Source: a virus. From it: a DNA stretch of 36,180 nt. This document shows, in pieces, positions 5,512 through 29,827 of this stretch (its first letter is position 1; every line of letters starts with the position of its first letter). Below the pieces are notes generated by a model that saw only the letters and a list, made by a program, of their open reading frames with translations, did no database searches and had not been told where the DNA came from. A program made the translations under genes and the position numbers. The DNA lies in IMG/VR virus record IMGVR_UViG_3300032092_000115, positions 1-36,180 of that record. One strand, written 5' to 3'.

Positions 5512-5750
5512 AATCATTTGAACAAGTCCTAGGTCTCGAAGATTCGGCCACCCGCGAGAAGTTCGTGGCGGCCTGTCAGGACATCTTCCGGTCGCCATCC
5601 GGCCGGATCGTCATGGCTCACCTGTGCGCGGCCCGCCACCCGATGTCGTTCCCGCGAGGCGAGACAACGGACGATACCATGGTTGCCAACGGCCAGCGCG
5701 AGGTGGTGGCCACCCTGTTCCGCTGCTCGCAGACTCAGATCACCTTATGA
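5508..5750 (+). CDS. Bbp19-like small structural-module protein
   Basis: This encodes 80 residues. The core QDIFRSPSGRIVMAHLCAARHP followed by a loop and NGQREVVATLF matches the pattern of the small protein family named for Bordetella phage BPP-1 Bbp19: a helix ending in SPxGRxVxAHL, then xGQRxVV and a terminal helix. Members sit between portal and scaffold genes, as here. The molecular role is not established to my knowledge; a head-assembly function is inferred from position. It overlaps the portal and the next small gene by four bases each. The family call is moderate, since it rests on remembered motif shape rather than alignment. Confidence 0.7.
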   Translation: MKSFEQVLGLEDSATREKFVAACQDIFRSPSGRIVMAHLCAARHPMSFPRGETTDDTMVANGQREVVATLFRCSQTQITL

Positions 5751-5926
5751 AACGGAAGAAAGACTCACCCGCGGTCGAGACCGCGGTCGAAGCCGCTGTC
5801 GCTGACAGCGAAACGAAGCAAGAGGCCGCTCCGGTGCCGGCTCGGCACACTCCCGACGCCGGAGTGAAAGAGTACGGCATCAGCCTCGATGAGATCTCGC
5901 GGCGCAGCCGCGCGACTCGACGCTGA
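5747..5926 (+). CDS. 59-residue highly charged protein
   Basis: ATG 5747 overlaps the preceding stop in an ATGA and opens a 59-codon frame. The product begins MKRKKDS, has an Ala/Glu/Val repeat-like helix in the middle and ends with a conserved-looking GISLDEISRRSRATRR. It lacks hydrophobic segments and is probably disordered or helical. Its place between the Bbp19-like gene and the scaffold gene, with only five bases to the next start, points to a minor head or assembly role. I recognise no family. Confidence 0.55.
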   Translation: MKRKKDSPAVETAVEAAVADSETKQEAAPVPARHTPDAGVKEYGISLDEISRRSRATRR

Positions 5927-5931
5927 TTCCC

Positions 5932-6810
5932 ATGGATACCAACACCCAAACCCAAACCCAACAGGCCACCGGCACTCCCGAAGGCCAGCAATCGGCCCCG
6001 CCGGCAATCTTCACCGAGGGGCTCAACTTCGCGCAGGACTGGTTCCAGGTACTGCCGGAGGAGTTTCACGGCCTCGCCAAGGACGCCAAGTCCCTGCCGG
6101 ATGTCTTCGCGCGGCTCAAAGGCTCGCGCGATGAGCTGGCCGCCCGCGGCTCCGGCCTGCGCGTGCCCGGCGAGAAGGCCACCGATGAGGAGCGAGCCGC
6201 CTTCACCAAGGAGCTTTACAAGCATCTGGGGGTGCCGGATACGCCGGACGCTTACGAGCTGACTGCCCCCGAGGGGTACGAGGCCGACAAGGAGCTGATT
6301 GAGATGGTGGCCAAGCTCGGCCCCGAGATCGGCCTGAGCAAGACCGGCGCATCGAAGCTGGCGGAGGCGTATAATCAGCAGATGCTCGCGCGGATCGAGA
6401 AGATCCGGGCCGAGGAGACTGCGCGCCTCGATACCGAGCGCAAGGAGCTGGCGAGCGAGCTGGGCGACAAGGCGGACACAGCGGTCGCCATGGCCAAGGC
6501 TGCAGCCAAGCGGCACGGCTGGCCGGAGGAATCGATGGACCCGACGAATCCCGCGTTTGTCGGGGCGGAGGCGTTCAAGCTGGTGCATTCGCTCGCGTCC
6601 GAGCTGGCGGTGGCCCAGGGGGCCGACCGAACCGGACAGGTGCAAGGCACCGCCGGCAGCCGCGCGCGTGACATCGATTGGGCGGTGCGCGTCCAGCAGG
6701 GTCTGGAGCCCGAGAGCGAGTACATCAAGGACCGCGCGCACCCGAAACACGAGGAGACGTGGCGCGAGATTCGCGCGGCCTACGCGGCCAAGCATCCGGG
6801 GAAGCGGTAA
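5932..6810 (+). CDS. Capsid assembly scaffolding protein
   Basis: This encodes 292 residues, acidic and almost entirely helical, with a Gln/Thr/Pro-rich disordered N-terminus. WFQVLPEEFHGLAKDAKSLPDVFARLK at about residues 36-62 and FTKELYKHLGVPDTPDAYELTAPEG at about residues 87-111 are hallmarks of phage scaffolding proteins. The basic C-terminus (AAYAAKHPGKR) is the usual capsid-binding end. The protein should form an internal scaffold for the prohead and be released before or during packaging. It lies directly before the capsid gene, as in T7 and BPP-1. The TAA stop is followed within seven bases by motif copy B, so the capsid transcript is probably controlled separately. Confidence 0.9.
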   Translation: MDTNTQTQTQQATGTPEGQQSAPPAIFTEGLNFAQDWFQVLPEEFHGLAKDAKSLPDVFARLKGSRDELAARGSGLRVPGEKATDEERAAFTKELYKHLGVPDTPDAYELTAPEGYEADKELIEMVAKLGPEIGLSKTGASKLAEAYNQQMLARIEKIRAEETARLDTERKELASELGDKADTAVAMAKAAAKRHGWPEESMDPTNPAFVGAEAFKLVHSLASELAVAQGADRTGQVQGTAGSRARDIDWAVRVQQGLEPESEYIKDRAHPKHEETWREIRAAYAAKHPGKR

Positions 6811-6817
6811 AAAAACC

Positions 6818-6843
6818 GCTTGCAAATCGGTCTGGTGTCTCGC
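6818..6843 (+). promoter_or_regulatory. Copy B of the bipartite motif, upstream of the capsid gene
   Basis: GCTTGCAAA (6818-6826), ten bases, then GTCTCGC (6837-6843), identical at all 16 fixed positions to copies at 3531 and 26204. GCTTGC occurs again at 6842-6847, 24 bp after the first, as in copy A. It begins seven bases after the scaffold stop and 137 bases before the end of the leader, so this copy has room for a true transcript leader. The second half overlaps a strong hairpin. Confidence 0.7.
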
Positions 6844-6863
6844 TTGCGAGTGAGACATCAGAC
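6830..6863 (+). other. 12-bp stem-loop in the capsid gene leader
   Basis: GTCTGGTGTCTC (6830-6841) pairs with GAGACATCAGAC (6852-6863) over 12 positions with one G-U pair, around the loop GCTTGCGAGT. A competing inner pairing CTCGC/GCGAG is also possible. No T-run follows, so it is not a standard intrinsic terminator. It could stabilise the capsid mRNA 5' end, be an RNase III site or separate scaffold and capsid expression. Confidence 0.6.
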
Positions 6864-6970
6864 TCTGAGCCCCGATGTCGGCCCGCTCGCTGTAGAGTCA
6901 CATTCCACGACCGGCCCCGCCATGGGCTCCCGTGAGGGGGATGAGAGGATAACCAATCATCGCAATAACC

Positions 6971-6980
6971 TTACTTTACC
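6971..6980 (+). promoter_or_regulatory. SD-less leader element TTACTTTACC before the capsid start
   Basis: TTACTTTACC abuts the capsid ATG and recurs as TTATTTTACC before the cement-like gene. No Shine-Dalgarno sequence is near. This pyrimidine-rich leader may be how the most abundant virion proteins are translated in this host; that is inference. Confidence 0.45.
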
Positions 6981-7913
6981 ATGGCTGACGGAAGCATCGT
7001 GACTCAAATTCCGGACCACATCCGGGCTCAATTCTCCGACCAGTGGGGAATCCAAATCCAGCAACTTGACGCCAAACTGGCGGGCGTCATGACCGTCGAA
7101 CCCGGGTGGACCGCGAAGGACTACTATTTCGACGACGTGGAAAAAATCGACTGGGCGGAAGAAACCGGCCGGCACGAGGATACCAACCCGACCGAGGTCG
7201 ACCTCAGCAAGATCCGCGGGACCAAGCGTTACCTGAAGGTCGCCAAGATCTTCGGTCGCCGGGACGCCGAGTGGCTCGACCGCATCGGCCGCCCCGACTC
7301 CGAGGTGATGACGGCAATGAAGGCCGGCTTCATGCGTGCCCTCGATGACCGCTGCGTCGCCGCTGCGGCCGAACAGAAGTACGCCGGCCCGGAAAACGCG
7401 CAGACGCTCATCAGTTTCCCGGCCGGGAACGTGGTCGCTCAAGACTTCGTCCTCTCCGGTGCCGCGGCCAATTCCGGCCTGACGGTTCCGAAACTGTTCG
7501 AGGTCGAGCGCCTCGCCCGCGTCGCCGACGTGGACTTCGACTCCGAGGAATTTTACCTCGCCATCGGGCCGAAGCAGATCCAGGACATGGTGGCGCACGT
7601 CACCGCGGCCGGAAACGACATCTATGCCAAGATGCTCGCCGACTGGCTGAACAACCGCTCGTCGAAGCTGCTCGGCATCTTCAACGTGATTGTCTCGAAC
7701 AAGCTGGAGATTGTCTCCGGGTCGAACTCCTACCGCCGATGCCTGGCCTTCACCCGCCGCGCGTTCGCGAAGTCTCCCGAGACGCACACGACCGCCGTCG
7801 ACACTCTGCCGGGCAAGTCCCACAGCGTGCAGATTGCGGCCTACGGAGACACCGGCGTTGTCCGCCGGTACGACAACCTCGTGTACCACATGCTCTGCGA
7901 CGAGACCCTGTAA
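6981..7913 (+). CDS. Major capsid protein
   Basis: This encodes 310 residues. Features fitting the podovirus HK97-fold capsid family that includes BPP-1 Bbp17 are FSDQWGIQIQQLDAKLAGVMTVEP near the start, the E-loop-like charged stretch EETGRHEDTNPTEVDLSKIRGTKRYLKVAKIFGRRDAEWLDR (read as parts of residues about 55-97) and EFYLAIGPKQIQDMVAH near residue 190. It lies directly after the scaffold gene, in a separate transcript leader with the motif, the hairpin and a TTACTTTACC start context, consistent with high expression. The ATG at 6981 begins MADGS. No slippery sequence for a frameshifted minor capsid is visible at the 3' end. The capsid role is secure from context; the precise family is moderately so. 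Confidence 0.88.
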   Translation: MADGSIVTQIPDHIRAQFSDQWGIQIQQLDAKLAGVMTVEPGWTAKDYYFDDVEKIDWAEETGRHEDTNPTEVDLSKIRGTKRYLKVAKIFGRRDAEWLDRIGRPDSEVMTAMKAGFMRALDDRCVAAAAEQKYAGPENAQTLISFPAGNVVAQDFVLSGAAANSGLTVPKLFEVERLARVADVDFDSEEFYLAIGPKQIQDMVAHVTAAGNDIYAKMLADWLNNRSSKLLGIFNVIVSNKLEIVSGSNSYRRCLAFTRRAFAKSPETHTTAVDTLPGKSHSVQIAAYGDTGVVRRYDNLVYHMLCDETL

Positions 7914-7924
7914 CCCTGACAACT

Positions 7925-7945
7925 GCCGGCGACCTCCCCGCCGGC
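7925..7945 (+). terminator. Hairpin after the capsid gene, possible attenuator
   Basis: GCCGGCG (7925-7931) and CGCCGGC (7939-7945) form a perfect 7-bp GC-rich stem with the loop ACCTCCC. The bases after it are CTTCATTC rather than a T-run, so any termination would be weak. A partial terminator after the capsid gene would fit the need for excess capsid; it could also protect the capsid mRNA 3' end. Confidence 0.45.
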
Positions 7946-7966
7946 CTTCATTCACACTTCACACTG

Positions 7967-7976
7967 TTATTTTACC
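7967..7976 (+). promoter_or_regulatory. SD-less leader element TTATTTTACC before the cement-like gene
   Basis: TTATTTTACC directly precedes the ATG and, together with ATGGCTGA, matches the capsid start context at 17 of 18 bases. No Shine-Dalgarno sequence is present. Confidence 0.45.
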
Positions 7977-8441
7977 ATGGCTGAACTTCTCTCCGCATTC
8001 GCTCAGGCTCAAACCAACGCGAAAGGCGCAAAAACCAACGGATACCCCAACGCGGCTCGGATGCAGCGGACGATCAAGGTCGCCCGCGACACCTACACCA
8101 CGACCGGGGCGGAAGCGAACAACGACACGATCAAGCTGGGGGTCTTCCTCCCGGCCGGCTCTGTCGTCAACGTCGAGAACTGCAAACTCCGCTTCGGCGC
8201 GAGCGGCACCTTCTCGGCCTCGGTCACTCTGCAACGGGTGCGAGCCGGCGTGGCGACTTCACTGTCCGCCGCTCTGGCCACGACCTCGGCCGCTGTCGGC
8301 ACGTTCGCCGCGGCCGCGATCACGCCCCCGACCGAGAGCCAAGCCGGGGATTTCCTGCAGCTCCTCATTACGCCGTTCACCTCGGCGACCGCGGGCAAGG
8401 TCATTGCCGCCGAGATTCAATTCGACGCGCCCCTGACCTAA
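7977..8441 (+). CDS. Putative capsid cement/decoration protein
   Basis: This encodes 154 residues, rich in Ala, Thr and Ser, with alternating beta-like segments (TIKLGVFLPAGSVVNVENCKLRFG, then FSASVTLQRV and a final GKVIAAEIQFDAPL). This suggests an all-beta fold such as a jelly roll. In BPP-1 the gene following the capsid encodes a jelly-roll cement protein, and the same order Bbp19-like, scaffold, capsid, this gene is seen here, so a cement role is likely. The leader matches that of the capsid gene, which points to similarly high expression. No cysteine-based or catalytic motif is seen. Assignment rests mainly on synteny and predicted beta content. Confidence 0.65.
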   Translation: MAELLSAFAQAQTNAKGAKTNGYPNAARMQRTIKVARDTYTTTGAEANNDTIKLGVFLPAGSVVNVENCKLRFGASGTFSASVTLQRVRAGVATSLSAALATTSAAVGTFAAAAITPPTESQAGDFLQLLITPFTSATAGKVIAAEIQFDAPLT

Positions 8442-8447
8442 GACCCG

Positions 8448-9191
8448 ATGACACAGACCGGCATCGCGAATCTCGCCCTCTCGCACCTCGGCGCGTCCCA
8501 AATCACAGCGATTACGGATGCGACGGTGGAGGCGGAGGCAATTCGCGATTGCTGGGACGCGGTGCGCAACGGGCTGATCCGGGCGCACCGATGGAATTTT
8601 GCCAAGACGCGGGCGTATCTGACGCCTGTCGTATGGGGGGAGTCCTTCGCTCTCCCGACTGACTGCCTCCGGGTGGTCCGTGTGAACGGTGTCGACCAGT
8701 CCGGCACCGTCGACGAAGGAGCCGAGATCGAGGGGCGGACGCTGCGGCTCGCGGCCACTACCTGCGAGGTGGTGTACCTCCGGATCATCGAGAATCCGGA
8801 CGACTGGGACGCTCTGTTTACCATCGTTTTCGGGTACGAGCTGGCGGCTGCGGTCGGGCCGCGCCTCGCCAACGGTTCGCAGTCGCTGGCGTCTGAGATG
8901 CGCGACCGCGCGACCGATCAACTGCAGATCGCCATGGCGGCAAATGCCATCGAGACAAAGCCGACGATCCGTCGGGCAATCGAGGGGAGCCGCTACCTCG
9001 AACACGTCTGGGGCTCGCCCGTCGTCCGCTCCGCCCCCTCTGCTCCGGCCCCGCCGACGACGGCCCCGGCTGGCAGCTCCTCGACGCCGGTCATCACCAT
9101 TGTCCAAGGAACGGACGGCGCGTGGTACGAAAAAACGACGATGCCGGACGGGACGGAATTCTTCAAACCTGTCTTCACTGCTCTGCCATGA
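8448..9191 (+). CDS. Tail adaptor protein, T7 gp11-like (tail tubular protein A)
   Basis: This encodes 247 residues. The start MTQTGIANLALSHLGASQI, then CWDAVRNGLIRAHRWNFAKTRAYL, is the classic N-terminal helix pair of podovirus tail tubular protein A, which forms the ring under the portal. LPTDCLRVVRVNG and FGYELAAAVGPRL follow in the expected order. A Pro/Ala-rich linker near residues 190-210 leads to a C-terminal tail, AWYEKTTMPDGTEFFKPVF, which looks like an added small beta module. In T7 the partner nozzle gene follows immediately, whereas here it begins at 13121, after a three-gene block. It overlaps the fibre gene by four bases. Confidence 0.88.
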   Translation: MTQTGIANLALSHLGASQITAITDATVEAEAIRDCWDAVRNGLIRAHRWNFAKTRAYLTPVVWGESFALPTDCLRVVRVNGVDQSGTVDEGAEIEGRTLRLAATTCEVVYLRIIENPDDWDALFTIVFGYELAAAVGPRLANGSQSLASEMRDRATDQLQIAMAANAIETKPTIRRAIEGSRYLEHVWGSPVVRSAPSAPAPPTTAPAGSSSTPVITIVQGTDGAWYEKTTMPDGTEFFKPVFTALP

Positions 9192-12100
9192 TCCGCGCCT
9201 GCCTCGTTGTTCTCGCTCTCGTGACCTCGTCCGCCGCCGCCGACGAGGTCTTATTCAATTGGCGGCCAGACAACACTGGCCCGTGGGAGCCCAAGCGGCT
9301 GCTCGCCACGCCTGGCTACGTCCTGCAGGTCGATGAGAACGGCGAGCCGGCATTCGTCGCGCCTGTGTCGGGCGACGGCACCGGCAACGTCGTGGGCCCG
9401 GTCAGTTCTGTTTCCAGCAACGTCGCGGTCTTCAATGGCCCGACCGGCAAGATCATCATGGACGGCGGGTACAGCATCGCCCAGATGCTCTCCCGCTCGG
9501 CTCACACCGGCACCCAGGCGGCGGGCACCATCACTGGGCTCGCAGCCTCGGCGACCACTGACACAACCAACGCGAGCAACATCGGGTTCGGCACCCTGCC
9601 CGATGCGCGTCTCTCGTCCTCGGTCGCCCTTGAGACGACCGCCAACACCTTCACGGCAAACCAGACGCTGACGACCGGGACCACGCCGGCATGGGTGGTC
9701 AACCGCACGGGCGGCAAGAACGGAGCCTTTGGTGCCGGCACCGGCGGCGCGTTTCTCAGCTACGACGACAGCGGGTTCTTCGGGATCCTTCGGTCGACCA
9801 ATGCGAACAACCTCGCGAACCCGGGGCAATTCGGCAGTTGGTCGATGTACATCGAGTCGGACGGTGACATCGGGGTGGGCAACATCGCGCCGACCGCCAA
9901 GCTCGATGTCACCGGCACGGTCAAGGCGACTGCCTTTGTCGGCGATGGCTCGGGTCTGACCGGCGTGGCTGGAGGTGATGTCGACGGTCCGATTAGCGCC
10001 ACCGACTCACAGATTGCCGTGTTCGATGGACCGACCGGGAAGATCCTCAAGGACGGTGGCGTGACGCTGGCGACGCTGCGCAACGCCTCGACCGCGTTCA
10101 CCTCGGGCACCGTACCTGTCGGGACGCTCGGAAGCGGGACCGCCAACAGTTCGACCTACCTGCGCGGCGACGGGACGTGGTCGACTCCGTCGGGGTCCGG
10201 TAACGTGACAGGACCGGGATCCTCGACCGTCGACAACCTCGCGGCTTTCAACGCGACCAATGGGCAGTTGCTCAAGGACGGCGGCTTCGCTTTGTCGGAC
10301 GTGGCGCGCCGATCCCAGGTCAACACGTTCGCCGCTGGCCAAACGATCCAGCACTCGACCAACCCGTTCCTCGCGGTCTCCCGCACGAGCAACAAGGCTG
10401 CGGCACTGGGCGCTGGGACGGGTGCCGGCTTCATCTCCTACGACTCCTCGGGAGACTTCGCCATCGGGGCGGCGACCAATGCGAACGTCCTGGCCGCGCC
10501 GGGGACGACCGAGACTTGGCATATGTGGCTCAAGGGCGCTACCGGACGGCTCGGCATCGGGACGACCACGCCGGCCACCCTGCTCGACGTGAACGGCACA
10601 GTGACGGCCACCGGATTCAGCGGACCCGCCAGCGGGCTCACGGGGCTCCCTGCGGCGCAACTCTCGGGCACGGTGCCGACCGGCAACCTCGGCTCGGGCA
10701 CGGCGAACGGGACGACCTACCTGCGAGGCGACGGCACCTGGTCGACTCCGGCCGGCACGGGTGACGTTGTCGGCCCATCCGGCGGGGCGACCGATGGCGC
10801 GATTGCCACCTTCGACACAGCGACCGGCAAGCTCCTCAAGAACTCGACCAAGCTGTCTGCCCAGGTGCCGCAGCTCAACACGACCAATACGTTCGGGGAA
10901 AACGTGACCATCGCCAAGGCGGCTACCACTGGACTGGTCGTCTCTCACACCTCCGGCAAGGCGGGGGCACTCGTCGCCGGCACTGGTGCCGCCGTCTTCT
11001 CGTTCGACTCCTCGGGCGCGTTCGGCATCGGCTCGACCACCAACGCCAACGTGACCGGCGCGCCCGGTCAGTTTGAGACCTACCGTCTCTGGATCGAGGG
11101 ATCGACCGGCAATGTCGGAATCGGCACCGGCAGTTCGTCGCCGGCATCCAAGCTGGAGGTGAGCGGCACGGTCACCGCGACCACGTTCTCCGGGTCCGGC
11201 GCGAGCCTGACCGCACTCAACGCCAGCAACCTCACGACCGGCACCGTTCCCACGGCGCAGCTTGGATCCGGTACGGCGAACAATACGACCTACCTGCGTG
11301 GCGATGGGACGTGGCAGACGGTTTCCGGCGGCAGCGGGATGTCGACGACCGACCAGGACAACGTGTACTACGGCGACGGCAGCGACGGCGACGTGACGGT
11401 CAACACTGCCACGCAAAACGCGGGCGATTGGTTGAGTGCCGGCGTGATGACCCGGGACGTTTACCTGAACGATTTGACCATCAACTCGACCGGCCAAATC
11501 CAGACGAACGGGTGGCGCATCTTCGTCAACGGGGTGCTCGACATCACTGCCGCCGCTGCGAACTCCATCGTTGTCTCGACCACTTCGGCGAACGGTGCGA
11601 ACGGATCCGGTTCGACTGCTGGCTCGTCCGCCGCCTCGGCGGGTGCTCAAAATGCCTTAGGCGATGGTGTCGATGGGACCAACGGCATCGCCGGTGGGAC
11701 TGGCGCGACCTCTGCAGCGTCTAGTCCGAGCGGTCCCTACGTTATGGGTGGTCGAGGGGGGTCGACCGGCAAGGGCGGGAACGGCTCGAACGGCTCGGCA
11801 TCGACCACGACCTCCACTACGGCTCCCACGCCATACAAGATCCGCCGCTACCAGGACATCCTGGCGGTCGGCGTGAGCCTGATGCGCGGAGGTCAAGGCA
11901 CCCGCGGTGGTGGTGGCGGGACGGGGGACGGCACCAATGCCGGCGGCGGCGGCGGGGGTGGTGGATCGGGGGCTGGCATCATCTGGATCGCTGCGCGCAC
12001 GATCTCGCGGGGCGGTTCGACCGCTGCCGGAGCCATCCAAGCGAACGGCTCGAACGGCGGCAACGGCGGCAACGCGGCAGCAGGCAACTCTGGTGGTGGC

Positions 12101-12409
12101 GGCGGCGGGGGTGGTGGCGGCGGCGGCTTCGTCCTGATCTACCACGGCGGGCTGACCGGCACGACCGCGACGAACGCCATCCATGTGAGCGGCGGCAACG
12201 GCGGCGCGGGCGGCACCGGAGTCGGGACCGGCATCGGCGGCAGCGGCGGACAAGGCGGCTACGGCGGTCGGGTCATTCTCGCCAACCTCGCGACCGGAGT
12301 ATTCTCTGAAAGCGATGGAACGACGACCGGCGGCACTGGGCCGAATGCGTCTGGAACCACGGCAGGTGGCACCGCCGGCACCGGAACCTCTTATACCGTC
12401 TCCCTATGA
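9188..12409 (+). CDS. Repeat-rich tail fibre/adhesin with N-terminal signal peptide and polyglycine tip
   Basis: This encodes 1073 residues from ATG 9188 in an ATGA overlap; an upstream in-frame start would only add adaptor-gene shadow. Residues 1-19 (MIRACLVVLALVTSSAAAD) are a textbook Sec signal with an Ala-x-Ala-like end, unexpected for a virion fibre. Residues about 65-720 hold fibre repeats: VxGP...GKxLKDGG, LGSGTAN...YLRGDGTW and GIGTxxPAxKLDVxGTVxAT. About residues 725-850 resemble a beta shaft start (DNVYYGDGSDGDVTV). The last 240 residues are Gly/Ser/Ala/Asn-rich with runs of eight or more glycines, like the polyglycine-helix tips of phage adhesins. It may be a receptor-binding fibre or an exported envelope protein. 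Confidence 0.8.
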   Translation: MIRACLVVLALVTSSAAADEVLFNWRPDNTGPWEPKRLLATPGYVLQVDENGEPAFVAPVSGDGTGNVVGPVSSVSSNVAVFNGPTGKIIMDGGYSIAQMLSRSAHTGTQAAGTITGLAASATTDTTNASNIGFGTLPDARLSSSVALETTANTFTANQTLTTGTTPAWVVNRTGGKNGAFGAGTGGAFLSYDDSGFFGILRSTNANNLANPGQFGSWSMYIESDGDIGVGNIAPTAKLDVTGTVKATAFVGDGSGLTGVAGGDVDGPISATDSQIAVFDGPTGKILKDGGVTLATLRNASTAFTSGTVPVGTLGSGTANSSTYLRGDGTWSTPSGSGNVTGPGSSTVDNLAAFNATNGQLLKDGGFALSDVARRSQVNTFAAGQTIQHSTNPFLAVSRTSNKAAALGAGTGAGFISYDSSGDFAIGAATNANVLAAPGTTETWHMWLKGATGRLGIGTTTPATLLDVNGTVTATGFSGPASGLTGLPAAQLSGTVPTGNLGSGTANGTTYLRGDGTWSTPAGTGDVVGPSGGATDGAIATFDTATGKLLKNSTKLSAQVPQLNTTNTFGENVTIAKAATTGLVVSHTSGKAGALVAGTGAAVFSFDSSGAFGIGSTTNANVTGAPGQFETYRLWIEGSTGNVGIGTGSSSPASKLEVSGTVTATTFSGSGASLTALNASNLTTGTVPTAQLGSGTANNTTYLRGDGTWQTVSGGSGMSTTDQDNVYYGDGSDGDVTVNTATQNAGDWLSAGVMTRDVYLNDLTINSTGQIQTNGWRIFVNGVLDITAAAANSIVVSTTSANGANGSGSTAGSSAASAGAQNALGDGVDGTNGIAGGTGATSAASSPSGPYVMGGRGGSTGKGGNGSNGSASTTTSTTAPTPYKIRRYQDILAVGVSLMRGGQGTRGGGGGTGDGTNAGGGGGGGGSGAGIIWIAARTISRGGSTAAGAIQANGSNGGNGGNAAAGNSGGGGGGGGGGGGFVLIYHGGLTGTTATNAIHVSGGNGGAGGTGVGTGIGGSGGQGGYGGRVILANLATGVFSESDGTTTGGTGPNASGTTAGGTAGTGTSYTVSL
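9641..11225 (+). repeat. Three diverged fibre repeats inside the large fibre gene
   Basis: Three units begin near 9641, 10319 and 10883, each about 110 codons. They share an NTF start, a central GAGTG...SYDSSG...TNAN...APGQ segment and an end of the form GIGTTTPA.KLDV.GTVTAT.F.G.. followed by LTGL. Between units lie LGSGTAN..TYLRGDGTW and a GPT-GK-LKDGG linker. Spacing is 678 then 564 bases. Divergence at the DNA level shows that the duplication is old. Confidence 0.8.
11752..12390 (+). repeat. Glycine-codon-rich tract encoding the fibre tip
   Basis: GGN-rich sequence encodes repeated short glycine runs separated by hydrophobic beta-like spacers (GAGIIWIAARTI, GGFVLIYHGGL, GGRVILANL). The longest glycine runs lie around 11940-11965 and 12097-12127. 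The alternation fits a sandwich of polyglycine type II helices and would also make this DNA prone to slippage and length variation. Confidence 0.7.
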
Positions 12410-12771
12410 TCTTCGGACACAAGACCCAAGCTCGCACGATCTCGACCGACCAGGCCACGTTCGACCGCATGGTCTCAGACGGTGCCATTGTCGCCGCAGA
12501 CTGGATGGAGTGCCCTCCGGTCCCGGTCTATGACCCGGCGACCCAGGCGGCACCGTACTGGGCCAGCGGCGCGTGGCAGGTGCGGGCGCTGAACGCGGAG
12601 GAGATCGCGGTGCGGGCGGCAACGGCGCAGGAGGCGAACGATCTCGAAAGCGAGCGGGCGCAGATTGCCGCGGTCCTGAACGACTTGAAGAACGGGACCG
12701 GCACGACCGCCCAGCGGCTGACCCGCTGCGAGCGCGCCATCGTGTTCCTTTTCAAACGCCTCATCCAATGA
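12406..12771 (+). CDS. Putative fibre-associated protein of unknown function
   Basis: This encodes 121 residues between the exported fibre and the exported Fn3-like protein, overlapping both by four bases. The N-terminal half (TISTDQATFDRMVSDGAIVAADW, PVYDPATQAAPYW, WQVRALNAEEI) resembles small virion-associated proteins that end in a W-x-V-x-x-L-x-x-E-E-I pattern. The C-terminal half is a long helix or coiled coil (residues about 68-120). There is no signal peptide, unlike its two neighbours. A fibre chaperone or fibre-attachment role is plausible from position, but I see no recognised tail-fibre-assembly domain. Confidence 0.6.
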   Translation: MIFGHKTQARTISTDQATFDRMVSDGAIVAADWMECPPVPVYDPATQAAPYWASGAWQVRALNAEEIAVRAATAQEANDLESERAQIAAVLNDLKNGTGTTAQRLTRCERAIVFLFKRLIQ

Positions 12772-13121
12772 AATCTGCACTTCTCGCTCTACTCGTCGTC
12801 GTCACCCTGGCCGGCATCGCCGCCGCCCAGGTCGCACTTCCCAAGACCATCCTGACCTGTGACCCGCCGCCAGCGGGTGATGTCGTCCGGGGTTACATCT
12901 TGTACAAGCGTGCCGCGACCGGGACGGGGTGGGAGGTGGTGAAGGTCTTCAACTCACCCGACCGCCGCTTCGAGGTGCCGCAGCCGATCATCGGCGGCAC
13001 CGAGTTCTCTCTGACCTGCTTCAACGAGGCGGGCGAGTCTGACTACAGTGACTCGCTCATCATGCCGGGCCGCCCGGGCAAGCCGCTGAGTACCCGGGTA
13101 ATTATCGAGTTCGGCCAATAA
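12768..13121 (+). CDS. Secreted fibronectin type III-like protein
   Basis: This encodes 117 residues. Residues 1-21 (MKSALLALLVVVTLAGIAAAQ) form a clear Sec signal peptide with AAA-Q cleavage likely. The mature part reads as one Fn3-like beta sandwich: VVRGYILYKRAATGTGWEVV, then FNSPDRRFEVPQP, GTEFSLTCFNEAGESDYSD, the last of which is the usual YxVxAxNxxGxS strand. Fn3 domains bind carbohydrate or protein surfaces. The start overlaps the previous stop by four bases; the stop shares a base with the next ATG. Like the fibre two genes upstream it is apparently exported, although it lies in the virion operon. Alternative: a virion surface protein whose hydrophobic start is not cleaved. Confidence 0.7.
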   Translation: MKSALLALLVVVTLAGIAAAQVALPKTILTCDPPPAGDVVRGYILYKRAATGTGWEVVKVFNSPDRRFEVPQPIIGGTEFSLTCFNEAGESDYSDSLIMPGRPGKPLSTRVIIEFGQ

Positions 13122-15454
13122 TGCGCACGCTCCTCAACAGTTTCACGTCCGGCGTTCTCAGTCCCCTTACAGTCGGGCTCACCGATCTGGAGGGTACGCG
13201 CAAGGGGTGTCGGATCCTGAAAAACTTTCAGGTTCTGCCGTCTGGCGGCGTCGTGCGCCGGCCCGGGCTGGTGCATCAGGCGGTCGCCCATGCCGGCGAG
13301 CCGATCCTCGTGGGGTTCAACTACAGCGCGACCGATGCCTTCCAGATCGAGATTGGAGCCGGGTATTTTCGGATCCTGAACGAGGCCGGCGACCTTGTGG
13401 TGACGCCGTCGACTCCGCCGGTCGGGGCGCTCTCGGCCGCCGGCCAGCCTCTGCGGTACGCCGCGCCGTGGACCGAGGAGCAGCTTCCCCGGCTGCAGTG
13501 GCTGCAGGCGAACAACCTGCTTCTGTTCTTCCATCCGGAGGTGGCGACCCAGCAGATCGTGCGGGTAGCGAATGACGACTGGCGGCTGACGCCGGTCGAT
13601 TGGAAATTCCCTCCGCTCCGCGACCAGAACCTGACCGCGACGACGCTCACCTCGTCGGTGACGGCTGTCGGTGCCACCGGCACGCTCACGGCCAGCGCGG
13701 CGACGTTCAACGCCGGCCATGTCGGCGGCATCTGGGAAGTGAAGCATGTCCGGACGGCCCCGATTGAAAAACTCTCGTTTCCCCTGACCATCACGACCGG
13801 CGTCACGTCGACCGCGATGCGGGTTATCGGGAAGTGGGAGATCTTCACTGTCGGCGAGTGGAATGGGACGCTCGCGCTCGAACAAGAGATCACGCCCGGC
13901 GTCTGGGAGACCATCCGGACGTGGCAGTCCGAGCGGGACTACAACGTCCAGACCTCCGGGCAAGTCGAGGTCGAGACGGTTCTGCGGCTCAAGTTCATCG
14001 GCACCGGCTACTCTCCGGGCGGGTCGATCCCGGCCCCGCGCGCGCAGATCACGGCCATCGACCCAGCGGTGAAGGGGCTGGTCAAGATCACCGGGCACAC
14101 GTCGCCGACGGTGGTCTCGATCCAGGTCATCCGCGCGCTGCATGATACCTCGGCAACCAGCCGGTGGTCCGAGGGCGCGTTCTCGACGTATCGAGGCTTC
14201 CCGCGGACGGCGTGTTTTCACGACCAGCGGCTCGTCCTCGGCGGGGTGGCGTCGCTGCCTCTGACCGTATGGGGCAGCCTGACGGCTGACCTGTTCAACT
14301 TCGAGCGCACCGGTCTCGACGACGGCTCATGGACCTATGAGCTGGCCGCGACCGAATCGAGTCCGGTGGCGTGGATCTTCAGCCAATCGCGCGGCCTGAT
14401 CGTCGCGACCGAGGCCGAGGAATGGCTCATGCAGGGGAGCGAGGGGAAACCGATCACGCCATCGAGCATCGAGGCGATGCGCAAAACCTCCTACGGTTCC
14501 GACCCGCAACGGGTGGTGCTGGCCGGCGGCTCGGTCATTTACGTCCAGTCCGGCGCGTTCGCCCTTCGGGAGTATGTCTTTGACTTCGCGACTCAGAACT
14601 TCGTCTCGCCGGACATTCTTGAGCTTGCGGATCACCTGCCTATCGGGGGGATTCGGTGCGTAGCCTTCGCGAAGAAGCCGGTGCCGACGCTGTACGTCGT
14701 GACGTGGGCCGGCAAGCTGCTCTCCTGCACCTACCGCCGGGCCGAGGGCGGCACGCTGGTCGCGTGGTCCGAGCATGTGACGGACGGCGAATTCCTCTGG
14801 GTATCTGTCCTCTACAACGAGGACGAATCCGACGACGTGTGGCTCGTGGTCTCGCGCGACGGCGAGGGGAGGATCGAGCGATTCTCTCCGAATCACCTGC
14901 AGATGGTCAAGAGCGCGGTGGCTCCGGAGGAGCTTGTTCACCTCGACGCCGCGTGGGTCTATGCCGGCACCGCAACGACGGCCGTCACCGGCCTCGATCA
15001 CCTGACCGGCCGGCAGGTGCGGATCCTCGCGGACGGGGCCGAGCATCCGCCGCAGACCGTACCTGACAGCGGGGCGCTCACGCTTGAGGCCGCCGCCTCG
15101 AATATCATCATCGGGCTGCCTTACGAGTCCTGCCTTCAGCCGATGCCGTGGGAGGCCGGCATGGAGGACGGTGCGTCCAGCGGCCGGAAGACCAAGGCCG
15201 GGCCCCTCGGGGCTCTGTTCTACAAGTCTGGAGCCTGCCAGTACGCCGATAGCCCGGCCGGCCCGTGGCGCGATGTCGTCTTCCGGCAGAACCAGGACGC
15301 CATGGACTCGGCCGTCCCCCTGTTCAGCGGGTGGCAGAAGCTGTCTCTCGCGGCCTCGTTCCGGGACACAATCGACGTTGTCCTGCGCACCGATGGCCCT
15401 TTGCCCTTGAATTTGCTCGCGTTGTCTCCCACTCAACAGGTGTATGGCGCATGA
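13121..15454 (+). CDS. Tail nozzle protein, T7 gp12-like (tail tubular protein B)
   Basis: This encodes 777 residues, close to T7 gp12 (794). The start MRTLLNSFTSGVLSPLTVGLTDLEGTRKGCRILKNFQVLPSGGVVRRPG is diagnostic of this family: fibre/portal-type FTSGVLSP, then NFxVLPSGGVxRRPG. Further landmarks are FHDQRLVLGG near residue 367, LAATESSPVAWI near 407 and WSEHVTDGEFLWVSVL near 548, the propeller-like part. It forms the distal hexameric tube through which DNA leaves. It is separated from its adaptor partner by the 3.9-kb fibre block. The stop overlaps the next gene by 11 bases. Confidence 0.93.
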   Translation: MRTLLNSFTSGVLSPLTVGLTDLEGTRKGCRILKNFQVLPSGGVVRRPGLVHQAVAHAGEPILVGFNYSATDAFQIEIGAGYFRILNEAGDLVVTPSTPPVGALSAAGQPLRYAAPWTEEQLPRLQWLQANNLLLFFHPEVATQQIVRVANDDWRLTPVDWKFPPLRDQNLTATTLTSSVTAVGATGTLTASAATFNAGHVGGIWEVKHVRTAPIEKLSFPLTITTGVTSTAMRVIGKWEIFTVGEWNGTLALEQEITPGVWETIRTWQSERDYNVQTSGQVEVETVLRLKFIGTGYSPGGSIPAPRAQITAIDPAVKGLVKITGHTSPTVVSIQVIRALHDTSATSRWSEGAFSTYRGFPRTACFHDQRLVLGGVASLPLTVWGSLTADLFNFERTGLDDGSWTYELAATESSPVAWIFSQSRGLIVATEAEEWLMQGSEGKPITPSSIEAMRKTSYGSDPQRVVLAGGSVIYVQSGAFALREYVFDFATQNFVSPDILELADHLPIGGIRCVAFAKKPVPTLYVVTWAGKLLSCTYRRAEGGTLVAWSEHVTDGEFLWVSVLYNEDESDDVWLVVSRDGEGRIERFSPNHLQMVKSAVAPEELVHLDAAWVYAGTATTAVTGLDHLTGRQVRILADGAEHPPQTVPDSGALTLEAAASNIIIGLPYESCLQPMPWEAGMEDGASSGRKTKAGPLGALFYKSGACQYADSPAGPWRDVVFRQNQDAMDSAVPLFSGWQKLSLAASFRDTIDVVLRTDGPLPLNLLALSPTQQVYGA

Positions 15455-26239: not shown

Positions 26240-28252
26240 ATGGCTGTCCCGTCCGAACAATCGATGGTGGTTTACCCCGGCAACAATTCGGCGGTGGTCG
26301 AATATCCGGTCCCCTTCTCGGCGCTCGAAGCGTCTCACATTAAGGTCGGGGTCCGGCCGGTGGGGGATCCGTTCGCCCAGCTCCCGACGTGGGAGTATGC
26401 GGTCATCCCGAAGGCGGGCGGCGGCTGGGCAGTGACGACGACCAGCGCGGTGCCGGCGGCGGATACTGTGGTGATCTGGCGCGAGCTGCCGCTGGTGCAG
26501 CCGGTGGAGCTGCCGCTGGCCGGCCGGCTGCCGTCGACCGCCATCGAGCAAGCTCTCGACCGGCATACGATGCAGATCCAGCAGCTCGCCGCCGATGTGA
26601 GCCGGTGCATTCGTCTCGACCGATCGGCCACTGACCAGGACTCTTTTGAAGTCACGCCGAACACTCTCATTGGGCTGGACGGTGCCGGCGACTGGACCGT
26701 CTTCGACGCGACCAAGGTGCGCGAGCTGGCGCTGCTGGCCGCCATCGACGCCGGCAATCCCATCGCCACCTGGGCAACCGAGGGCGACCGGCCGAGCACT
26801 CCGCCGGATTTCGTCGGGCAGATCGGTGCGCAGCGTGACGACAAGTCCCTGTGGGTTGGCAACTCGACGACGGGTGGCGACTGGACCCGGGCGAAGGCCG
26901 ACCTCGGGGACATCCAGATTGTGCGGACGCTCGCCCAGTTCGAGAACGCGCTGGCCGCGGGCGGCCGGATGCGGGTCGTCTCAAGCCTGTCGCTGCCGAC
27001 AGCCTACGACGTGACGGTCCCTGTGGACATCGAGGGCGCGCCCGGCGTGGTTCTCACCCTGACCGGGTCGGAGACTTACGGGTTCAGCGTTCAGGCGTCG
27101 ATGCGCGTGCGGGACATATCGATTACGAGCGGCAGCCGCACCGCTCACCGCGCCTTCGCCATCGGTGGCAGCCGCTATGTCGGGGACTTCGTCCTGCAGC
27201 GGGTCAAGATCTACAACGTCGGCAACGCACTGTGCGCGGACGGCGGCCCGACCTCGGCCATCATGCCGAATATCTACATCGATGACTGCGACTTCACTGC
27301 CATCGGGGCGGTCGGGTACTCGGCCGGCGGGGGGTCTGGCGGGGACAGCGCCGTCGCGATCACCTGGAACCTCGGGCACGTCACGATCACCAACAGTCGG
27401 TTCAAGGATACCTACGGCAACGGCATCTACATCGGGCAGAGCGGCCTCATGGCGGGCGGGCTGGACAATTCCGCGACCGTGCCGAACGCCGAGGCGTGCG
27501 GGCAGATCTTCGTCGCAAATAACTGGGTGCGCGACTTCGACCGCAACGGCATCGAGATCTTCGGAGCGGACTGGGCTGTCGTCGCGTTCAACCGGATCAT
27601 CGGCGGCACGGGGATCCGGGATTCGGCGGGCATCTCGCTCTCGTTCGCCGGCAATCATGGCGTCTGCCATGGTAATATCATTCGAGATTACTGGGGCTAC
27701 GGGCTGGAGGTGGTTCACACCTACAACATTGTCACCTGCAACTACATTGATACCTGCACCTTCGACCGGGACAACACCCTGTTTGGGATGTCCGTCGGGG
27801 GCCGCGATGTCACGAGCAAGTGCCTGATCGCGAACAACGTCTTTCGCAACATCGTAAACAAGGTTCATGCGCACGTCGCCATGAACTTCTCGCTCTCGAC
27901 TGACTGCACCGTGGTTGGGAACAAGTTTCACGAGGTGTCCATCGCGTGCCAGGTTCAAAGCTCCTCCTGCGAGCGGATCACGTTCATGGGGAACGAGCAT
28001 TACTTCAGCAACGGGGCGAGCGCGCTCGGCGACATCTTTAAATGGACCTTCGCCGCGAATTCGGGCGTTAAGCATGTCGTGCTCAACAACATCACCCGAA
28101 ACATTGGCGCGGTCGATCCGGGAATCTTCATCAAGTTTGGCAACGGGACCGGTGGCTATACCAATTACGCCACCGGCCAGCAGACACACAGCGGGGCGGG
28201 TTATCTGGAGCTGGGCGACTCCGTGAATTCCAATAACCTCGTCATCCCGTGA
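26240..28252 (+). CDS. Tailspike with T7 gp17-like anchor and beta-helix, possible depolymerase
   Basis: This encodes 670 residues. Residues about 1-130 (VVYPGNNSAVVEYPVPFSAL, VIWRELPLVQPVEL, IEQALDRHTMQIQQLA) match the N-terminal virion-binding domain of T7 gp17 tail fibres. Residues about 130-270 are a linker with a GxxxxxWT-type carbohydrate-like stretch. Residues about 280-630 are a right-handed parallel beta-helix: repeated turns such as NRFKDTYGNGIYIGQSG, NNWVRDFDRNGIEIFG, GNIIRDYWGYGLEVVHTYN and NNVFRNIVNKVHA, as in pectate-lyase-fold spikes. It probably binds and may cleave a capsule or O-antigen polysaccharide; catalytic residues cannot be assigned. ATG 26240 follows motif C with no Shine-Dalgarno sequence. 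Confidence 0.88.
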   Translation: MAVPSEQSMVVYPGNNSAVVEYPVPFSALEASHIKVGVRPVGDPFAQLPTWEYAVIPKAGGGWAVTTTSAVPAADTVVIWRELPLVQPVELPLAGRLPSTAIEQALDRHTMQIQQLAADVSRCIRLDRSATDQDSFEVTPNTLIGLDGAGDWTVFDATKVRELALLAAIDAGNPIATWATEGDRPSTPPDFVGQIGAQRDDKSLWVGNSTTGGDWTRAKADLGDIQIVRTLAQFENALAAGGRMRVVSSLSLPTAYDVTVPVDIEGAPGVVLTLTGSETYGFSVQASMRVRDISITSGSRTAHRAFAIGGSRYVGDFVLQRVKIYNVGNALCADGGPTSAIMPNIYIDDCDFTAIGAVGYSAGGGSGGDSAVAITWNLGHVTITNSRFKDTYGNGIYIGQSGLMAGGLDNSATVPNAEACGQIFVANNWVRDFDRNGIEIFGADWAVVAFNRIIGGTGIRDSAGISLSFAGNHGVCHGNIIRDYWGYGLEVVHTYNIVTCNYIDTCTFDRDNTLFGMSVGGRDVTSKCLIANNVFRNIVNKVHAHVAMNFSLSTDCTVVGNKFHEVSIACQVQSSSCERITFMGNEHYFSNGASALGDIFKWTFAANSGVKHVVLNNITRNIGAVDPGIFIKFGNGTGGYTNYATGQQTHSGAGYLELGDSVNSNNLVIP

Positions 28253-28662
28253 AACCCGCCGTCGTGTTTTCCCCCTTTATTGCCGGCCTCCTTGTCTCGT
28301 GCAACGTCAAGCCGACGATCACGACGCCGGGCGGGTACAAGCTCACGCTGGGCGCGTCGCTCCTCGAAAAGACCGCGGAGGAGTCTGCGCTGGTCGAACT
28401 GCCTGACGGCACCCGACTGGCCTACAGTACCAAGGGTAAGGACCAGACGATGATTGCCAAGGAGGGGATCCGCGCCTGGGCGACCGTGGCCGGGATCACC
28501 GCGACGGCCGACGGCCTGAACGAGGGCGAGGCGATCCGGGAGCAGGGGATGACGGCCCGCACGATCTCGGCCGACAGCGTGAAGAAAGCCGACATTGCCG
28601 GCGAGGTCAAAAAGACTACGACTCTCGTCCCTCCGGCGTTTAAGCCGGCGTCATCTTTCTAA
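28249..28662 (+). CDS. Predicted lipoprotein, possible outer spanin or exclusion protein
   Basis: This encodes 137 residues from GTG 28249 in a GTGA overlap with the tailspike. The start MKPAVVFSPFIAGLLVSCNV carries a lipobox, LVSC, with Cys18 as the lipidated residue. The mature chain begins VKPTITTPGGYKLTLGASLLEKTAEESALVELPDG, a beta-rich segment, then an Ala/Glu-rich helical part and a Pro-containing tail. It is larger than typical Rz1-type outer spanins but lies beside a TM/coiled-coil protein and two murein hydrolases, so a lysis role is plausible. A superinfection-exclusion lipoprotein is an alternative. I do not recognise the mature domain. Confidence 0.65.
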   Translation: MKPAVVFSPFIAGLLVSCNVKPTITTPGGYKLTLGASLLEKTAEESALVELPDGTRLAYSTKGKDQTMIAKEGIRAWATVAGITATADGLNEGEAIREQGMTARTISADSVKKADIAGEVKKTTTLVPPAFKPASSF

Positions 28663-28936: not shown

Positions 28937-29397
28937 GAGAGGAGCCGTCCATTCTTCTGTTCCGGGGCCGCGGGTTCATCTCGCGGCTGATCCGCTGGCA
29001 GACCCGGTCGCAGTACAGTCACGCGGCCATCATGCTGCCGTGCGGGCGGGTGCTGGAGGCGTGGCAGGGTGAGGGGGTGCGCATCAAGTGGCTGCGCGAC
29101 TGGTGCGACGTGGAGCGGTTCCGGGTGACCGGCATGACGCCGGAGCAGTGGTCGACGGCCATCGCCTTCGCGCGAGCCCAGATCGGCAAGCGGTACGATT
29201 ATCGGGGCGTGATTCGATTCCTCTCCCGCCACAAGCATCCGCGGGATGATCGCTGGTTCTGCAGCGAGCTAGTCTTCGCGAGCCTCGCGGCGGCCGGCGT
29301 GAAACTGCTCATGTCCGTCGACATCGGCGAGGTGTCGCCCGGGATGCTGGCCTACTCTCACCGTCTCGAACCATATGACAAACGCCCAACGCCTTGA
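28933..29397 (+). CDS. Permuted NlpC/P60 (YiiX-like) papain-fold enzyme
   Basis: This encodes 154 residues. LLFRGRGFISRLIRWQTRSQYSHAAI brings His30 in YSHAA, and WFCSELVFASL brings Cys110 and Glu112, the permuted papain-like order (His before Cys) of the YiiX/C92-type NlpC/P60 superfamily. IGKRYDYRGVIRFL between them is the usual GxxYD-x-x-G segment. Such enzymes are amidases or peptidases acting on murein or acyl substrates. There is no signal peptide. Its place in the lysis block, overlapping the TM gene by four bases and the endolysin by 23, suggests murein peptidase activity, but lipid-directed activity in this superfamily means that the substrate is open. Confidence 0.78.
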   Translation: MREEPSILLFRGRGFISRLIRWQTRSQYSHAAIMLPCGRVLEAWQGEGVRIKWLRDWCDVERFRVTGMTPEQWSTAIAFARAQIGKRYDYRGVIRFLSRHKHPRDDRWFCSELVFASLAAAGVKLLMSVDIGEVSPGMLAYSHRLEPYDKRPTP

Positions 29398-29827
29398 AGA
29401 ATTCGTGGATCAAATGGGGCTGCGCTACTTCCGGGGGAAGGAGCTGACTTGGCTCTGGAGCCGGACACGGAAGGGGGTGTCGAACTCCTGTCCTCCGGAG
29501 GCGCTGTGGCCGAACTGCATCCAGCCGCTCGTGGTGCTCGATGAGATCCGGCACCGGCTCGGGGAGACGATCCGCATTACGTCGGCCTACCGCAGTCCGG
29601 CGTACAACGAGGCCGTCGGCGGCGAGCGGATGTCGTATCACAAGATCTTCATGGCACTCGACGCGACCTCGCCGGCCGGTGCGGCCAAGCTGCACGCGGT
29701 CGCCCGCGAGGTGCGGGGGACGCGCCTGCGGCTACCAGGCGGCGGCTCGTTCGTCTGGCGCGGTGGGATCGGCCGCTACCCGTCATTCATTCACGTTGAC
29801 ACGCGGGGCCGGGACGCAAATTGGTAG
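29375..29827 (+). CDS. Endolysin, M15-family (M15_3-like) murein peptidase
   Basis: This encodes 150 residues. IRITSAYRSPAYNEAVGG at residues 66-83, SYHKIFMALD with His89 and Asp96, and FIHVDTRG with His140 and Asp142 give the zinc-site order of M15 (VanY/endolysin-type) carboxypeptidases. Length and layout fit the phage M15_3 endolysins with no cell-wall-binding domain. It has no signal peptide, so it would need a holin for access to the murein. ATG 29375 lies 23 bases inside the preceding gene. The N-terminal 60 residues contain a CPPEALWPNC pair of cysteines that could form a structural link. The lysis enzyme call is firm. Confidence 0.9.
   Translation: MTNAQRLEEFVDQMGLRYFRGKELTWLWSRTRKGVSNSCPPEALWPNCIQPLVVLDEIRHRLGETIRITSAYRSPAYNEAVGGERMSYHKIFMALDATSPAGAAKLHAVAREVRGTRLRLPGGGSFVWRGGIGRYPSFIHVDTRGRDANW

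Follow-up and report, generated by a model that had tools for sequence, protein, structure and literature searches.

A predicted exported fibre module between the adaptor and nozzle genes of a phage, and export signals on docking-domain fibres of a sister clade

The window, i.e. the whole stretch of DNA analysed here, is an IMG/VR virus record of 36,180 bases. Between its tail adaptor and tail nozzle genes lies an insert of three genes and 3.9 kb, and a separate tailspike gene is located further downstream:

8448-9191, plus strand: tail adaptor gene, flanking the insert on the left (phrog_394, E 3e-34)
9188-12409, plus strand: gene for a 1073-aa fibre (open reading frame and start, signal score, repeats, similarity to annotated tail fibres)
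9188-9241, plus strand: fibre signal peptide, predicted as Sec/SPase I, residues 1-18, MIRACLVVLALVTSSAAA, with cleavage before DEV
12406-12771, plus strand: gene for a 121-aa protein without a signal (open reading frame)
12768-13121, plus strand: gene for a signal-bearing 117-aa Fn3/Ig-like protein with Cys 31 and Cys 84 (signal score, AlphaFold2, fold matches)
12768-12827, plus strand: signal peptide of the Fn3-like protein, predicted as Sec/SPase I, MKSALLALLVVVTLAGIAAA, with cleavage before QVA
13121-15454, plus strand: tail nozzle gene, flanking the insert on the right (phrog_376, E 5e-134)
26240-28252, plus strand: separate T7-type tailspike without a signal, outside the insert (phrog_1640, E 6e-14; docking-domain HMM, E 1e-36)

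All gene junctions from the adaptor to the nozzle overlap, three as ATGA, including that of the fibre ATG with the adaptor stop, and one as TAATG. Because every junction overlaps, both the start codons and a co-translated expression of the insert are supported. The third-position GC of the insert genes (0.81, 0.85 and 0.81) was compared with that of their neighbours (0.79 and 0.84), and a search of the window for a compositional anomaly of the insert found none. The first 15.3 kb of the window, module included, recur in contig L084 with 99.97% identity. L084 also reaches 612 bases beyond the upstream end of the window, so that the record is incomplete at that end.

Signals were called with a simple home-made scorer that recovers OmpA, LamB and MalE and misses PhoA. 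The starts of the fibre and the Fn3-like protein score 5.04 and 5.01, ranking first and second among the 777 candidate starts in the window (next score 4.01), and both N-termini comprise a positive n-region, a hydrophobic, uncharged h-region and an AxA site with small residues at -3 and -1. This confirms the 3.9-kb block that a first-pass annotation of the sequence had described, with a signal-bearing 1073-aa fibre and a signal-bearing Fn3-like protein between adaptor and nozzle; its content is to be amended in that there are three genes, of which the second lacks a signal, and in that the name Fn3 is based on a fold match of modest strength. The same annotation had considered that starts downstream of the signals might be used, but the next usable in-frame starts are codon 60 of the fibre and codon 45 of the Fn3-like protein, both inside the mature proteins. 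Neither protein has a lipobox Cys at its cleavage site, the fibre Cys being residue 5 and the Fn3-like protein having no Cys there. The block is thus not of the superinfection-exclusion-lipoprotein or Lom-like type, as it lacks a lipobox and its main protein is a 1073-aa repeat fibre, although it might reach a comparable effect in a different way. Given the strong signals, the lack of an alternative start and the conservation of the signal in 18 of 18 cases in a sister clade (see below), the sequences make it very probable that the fibre and the Fn3-like protein are exported.

Behind its signal the fibre has a short N-terminal region and then repeats, in which the motif LRGDGTW occurs at residues 325, 512 and 703; the C-terminus is rich in Gly (35% in residues 841-1073). 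Its sole cysteine is located inside the signal. A short part of the fibre resembles an annotated tail fibre, the long tail fibre of cyanophage S-SRM01 (tblastn, E 4e-16, with 50% identity across 17% of the query), and a PDB sequence search with the fibre gave no significant match. No docking domain of the fibre was matched in Pfam or PHROG, and a docking-domain search of the window ORFs matched the spike at 26240 only, although a diverged domain could escape such a search. The AlphaFold2 model of the Fn3-like protein has seven strands (pLDDT 80), and its fold matches, all modest, are a mixture of Fn3 and Ig (best Foldseek E 4e-3; best Z 5.7). Pfam gave no match. Cys 31 and Cys 84 lie on or at the ends of strands in this model and could form a B-F disulfide. 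The 121-aa protein has no Pfam or PHROG family match above threshold and, judged by its position only, is a possible fibre-assembly helper.

The first-pass annotation had measured the insert against T7, where adaptor and nozzle genes are adjacent. The nozzle of the window belongs to the epsilon15/BPP-1/BcepC6B family and is not strictly that of T7, but the adjacency itself holds: in 11 of 11 reference phages of this nozzle family (BcepC6B, HTVC024P, vir555, BPP-1, DC33, ctQRb9, PS25B.1, epsilon15, Carin1, BUCT708 and ctVRi840) the two genes lie side by side without a kilobase-scale insert. Of 77 IMG/VR nozzle relatives, 73 have a gap of at most 36 bases and the other four a gap of 164 to 728 bases, and the insert was found in none of the 77 relatives and 11 reference phages. 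Most simply, the 3.9-kb insert is a gain in the lineage of the window. Signal-bearing genes are rare around the nozzles of the relatives (1 of 702 genes of at least 100 aa), and since the insert is absent there the two signals arrived with it, against this background of one in 702 genes. A search for relatives of the fibre or the Fn3-like protein yielded one near-identical contig only (L002/L083/L084) and no diverged relative. Limnohabitans phage DC33 (L151, PQ492659.1) is filed under Inoviridae, yet has the gene order of a short-tailed double-stranded DNA phage.

Export signals on fibres recur in a sister clade, defined here as L007/G002, L120/G001 and their relatives. A nozzle scan gave 38 loci. 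The nozzle and adaptor of L007/G002 and L120/G001 belong to the window's own families. The clade fibre is encoded after a gp16-like internal virion protein, i.e. at the gp17 position, and the domain behind its signal matches the docking domain of T7 gp17 (hhalign, E 3e-4). A Pfam and PHROG search did not recognise this domain directly. Its structural model is of low confidence, and the top Foldseek matches, fibres of T7-like tail complexes, therefore only support the profile match. A signal is located directly upstream of 18 of 18 distinct docking domains, and a 19th signal-bearing docking-domain fibre is encoded in a Hyphomicrobiales genome (MAG). As a control, none of 22 docking-domain fibres in the relatives of the window carries a signal, which is also absent from Microcystis phage Mwe-JY08 and another genome match. 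While the docking domains are 47-80% identical, the signals are 42% identical on average and keep a cleavage-type Ala, mostly followed by Gln, and then a conserved PVPALPDTERR. In G002 we looked by eye for a fibre gene without a signal and saw none, so that its signal-bearing proteins are likely the receptor-binding proteins of the virion. The sequences of the sister clade are best read as export of real virion fibres.

The cysteine content agrees with this reading of the clade. Signal-bearing clade proteins contain 1.59 Cys per 100 aa as compared to 0.58 in other long genes (p 3e-10, calculated with related sequences that are not independent), and in the alignment of the 18 fibres a CxC pair has both cysteines in 13 sequences, neither in five and never a single one. 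Such richness, and a pair kept or lost as a unit, would fit folding in the oxidising periplasm. In L167-L200 the gp15/gp16-like internal virion proteins (1000-1600 aa) are cysteine-free and the adjoining fibres have 10-18 cysteines. The window displays the opposite pattern: its tailspike at 26240-28252 (670 aa, no signal) holds 11 cysteines, whereas its fibre has none outside the signal, and the cysteine argument is therefore inapplicable inside the window. Cys enrichment was also seen across a mixed collection of 72 fibres (1.23 versus 0.20 per 100 aa, p 0.002), but it fails inside the window and was dropped for it.

Two clade members also carry signal-bearing blocks just upstream of the adaptor, which is the neighbourhood of the window's insert. 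L167 encodes a small signal-bearing partner of 141 aa (5740-6165) and a signal-bearing tailspike of 961 aa with a beta-helix (6156-9041), and L182 a partner of 128 aa and a tailspike or fibre of 825 aa (6441-9301). As the likeness of the window module to these blocks is limited to layout and short repeats, we regard them as parallel gains and not as proven homologues.

A search with the first 171 residues of the window fibre and with peptide patterns outside the signal yielded 80 viral loci. Eight of 72 complete fibres carry a signal (scorer cut-off 3.9), and they belong to unrelated phages. Podovirus-like L017 encodes two signal-bearing proteins between capsid-region and tail genes, a fibre of 1076 aa and a lectin-like protein of 276 aa. 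A signal-bearing fibre with a small signal-bearing partner occurs beside the adaptor in L167, L182 and L017. A second signal-bearing gene downstream is commoner after signal-bearing fibres (3 of 6 versus 1 of 53, a small sample). In myovirus-like loci the signal is followed by a domain with eight invariant cysteines. The loci L008, L124, L005 and L003 have one to four consecutive signal-bearing fibre-like genes behind baseplate genes, and four of these share the eight invariant cysteines in the N-terminal domain (alignment A2); a search for a genome host of this cysteine-rich family found none. Bacterial genomes of Acidobacteria, Bdellovibrio and other types likewise encode, among ordinary chromosomal genes, proteins that combine a signal with the kind of repeat seen in the window fibre. 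In L143, a Bryobacterales genome contig (6308-7147), and in phage L017 (8499-9329) a fibre-like gene is followed by a similar signal-bearing gene, with Laminin_G_3 in L017, a likeness that suggests exchange of such blocks between phages and hosts.

Starting from what can be read in the sequences, namely the insert, its predicted signals and apparent coupling, its gain in one lineage and the conserved signal of the sister clade, we propose that the insert is a late-expressed module of exported adhesins whose fibre and partner are added to virions at lysis and serve as a further receptor-binding fibre, a reading to which we give nearly even chances. Coupled translation would yield the fibre and its Fn3-like partner along with the tail proteins; Sec would carry both across the inner membrane, signal peptidase I would remove their signals, and folding would take place in the periplasm. 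Virions finished in the cytoplasm would meet them once the inner membrane is breached at lysis, and the two proteins would then attach to the neck or tail. For the window fibre we infer translocation, cleavage and virion attachment; given export, attachment appears slightly more probable than its opposite. The ability of tail parts to join particles in vitro makes attachment at lysis plausible. Late joining of this kind was reportedly described for P22 by Israel and co-workers in 1967 (listed in PMC3741392). In T4, extract complementation likewise lets tail parts join in vitro (PMC9576892). The first-pass annotation had called exported fibres paradoxical, which is fair for textbook assembly although the case is not an isolated one; among the options it listed, addition to virions at release gains most, as the signal-bearing fibres of the clade carry a virion-docking domain.

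A less probable alternative, which nevertheless deserves serious consideration, is that the fibre and the Fn3-like protein are exported and never enter the virion. They would coat the envelope or be released and thereby block receptors against superinfection, keep progeny from binding debris or stick to neighbouring cells. The strong signals are compatible with this role, and several features speak against a virion fibre in the window, namely the lack of a recognised docking domain, of a mature cysteine and the presence of a second, T7-type tailspike. Moreover, the repeats of this fibre are also found in exported proteins encoded by bacterial chromosomes, and exported phage proteins from tail regions are known, such as Lom of lambda (PMC12309495). 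However, coupled translation within the adaptor-nozzle pair ties the insert to virion assembly, the signal-bearing fibres of the sister clade have a docking domain at the gp17 position, and no known membrane anchor or lipobox was recognised. Envelope coating, a superinfection block and a decoy function, all named in the first-pass annotation, are conceivable for the window's own fibre.

It is improbable that the hydrophobic N-terminus is an anchor or assembly element rather than a working export signal, the fibre staying in the cytoplasm fixed to the virion or the inner membrane. In favour of an anchor, virion assembly is cytoplasmic, Sec might fail to capture large fibres that fold fast, and cleavage of the signal is a prediction. 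Against this, cleavage-type residues persist in the 18 clade fibres although their signals otherwise diverge, a signal of this type is also present on the unrelated small partner, and the clade cysteine pattern fits an oxidising compartment, so that the virion anchor suggested in the first-pass annotation is disfavoured. That a recently captured host adhesin operon without selected use to the phage came to lie in the tail operon by chance is very unlikely, for although the insert is unique among the relatives and comparable exported bacterial proteins exist, its junctions have exact 4-base overlaps, its third-position GC resembles that of its neighbours, its frames are open in two contigs and comparable blocks lie beside the adaptor in other phages.

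According to common teaching, tailed phages assemble entirely in the cytoplasm. If a whole clade conserves a cleavable-looking export signal on its docking-domain fibre, either this rule is broken or a split route is needed. We suggest, tentatively and at somewhat less than even chances, that some tailed phages make receptor-binding fibres via Sec, mature them in the periplasm, often with disulfides, and mount them on finished virions only at lysis. Such a compartment-split route would have become fixed in a single podovirus clade, and the lineage of the window would have acquired it independently. If true, it would account for cysteine-rich fibres and make receptor binding dependent on host Sec, signal peptidase and disulfide machinery, and it predicts virions with cut N-termini, e.g. 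QAPPPVPALPDTER in the clade and DEVLFNW and QVALPK in the window's phage. Attachment fibres of some phages are probably made in a compartment other than that of virion assembly, and exported fibre genes close to tail genes are not necessarily host genes.

Like the gp17-type fibres of T7, the window fibre is repetitive and encoded with tail genes, and the sister clade shares in addition the docking domain and the gp17 position; T7 gp17, in contrast, has no signal peptide, while the fibre of the window is signal-bearing, is encoded between adaptor and nozzle and lacks a recognised docking domain. The sister clade resembles the window in nozzle and adaptor families, Sec signals on fibres, small signal-bearing partners and blocks beside the adaptor, but the window fibre shares only short repeats with it and the window's spike at the gp17 position is signal-less. 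Lom and other exported tail-region proteins are likewise encoded among tail genes (PMC12309495), Lom being, however, a small outer-membrane beta-barrel and not a 1073-aa fibre with an Fn3-like partner. The exported proteins of Acidobacteria and Bdellovibrio combine a signal with the same kind of repeat, several of them flanked by ordinary chromosomal genes instead of tail genes. Phages of Porphyromonas gingivalis have genes whose Q-rule signal peptides (PMC10367356) are similarly adapted to the host Sec/SPase I route, but these genes are of unknown function there and do not encode fibres. In the literature, of which few subscription papers were covered, we found no tail fibre with a signal peptide, the phage signal peptides mentioned being those of spanins, SAR endolysins, Lom and genes of unknown function. 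The requirement of Klebsiella phages for host DsbA is explained by receptors in the respective study (PMC13412088) and was not used as support.

Two further genes lie downstream in the window. Adjoining the tailspike, 28249-28662 encodes a 137-aa protein with a GTG start and a lipobox-like LVSC at residues 15-18, on which the home-made scorer made no call and which is likely a lipoprotein and thus a third candidate for export. The gene at 29375-29827 encodes a probable endolysin (Peptidase_M15_3, E 5e-15).
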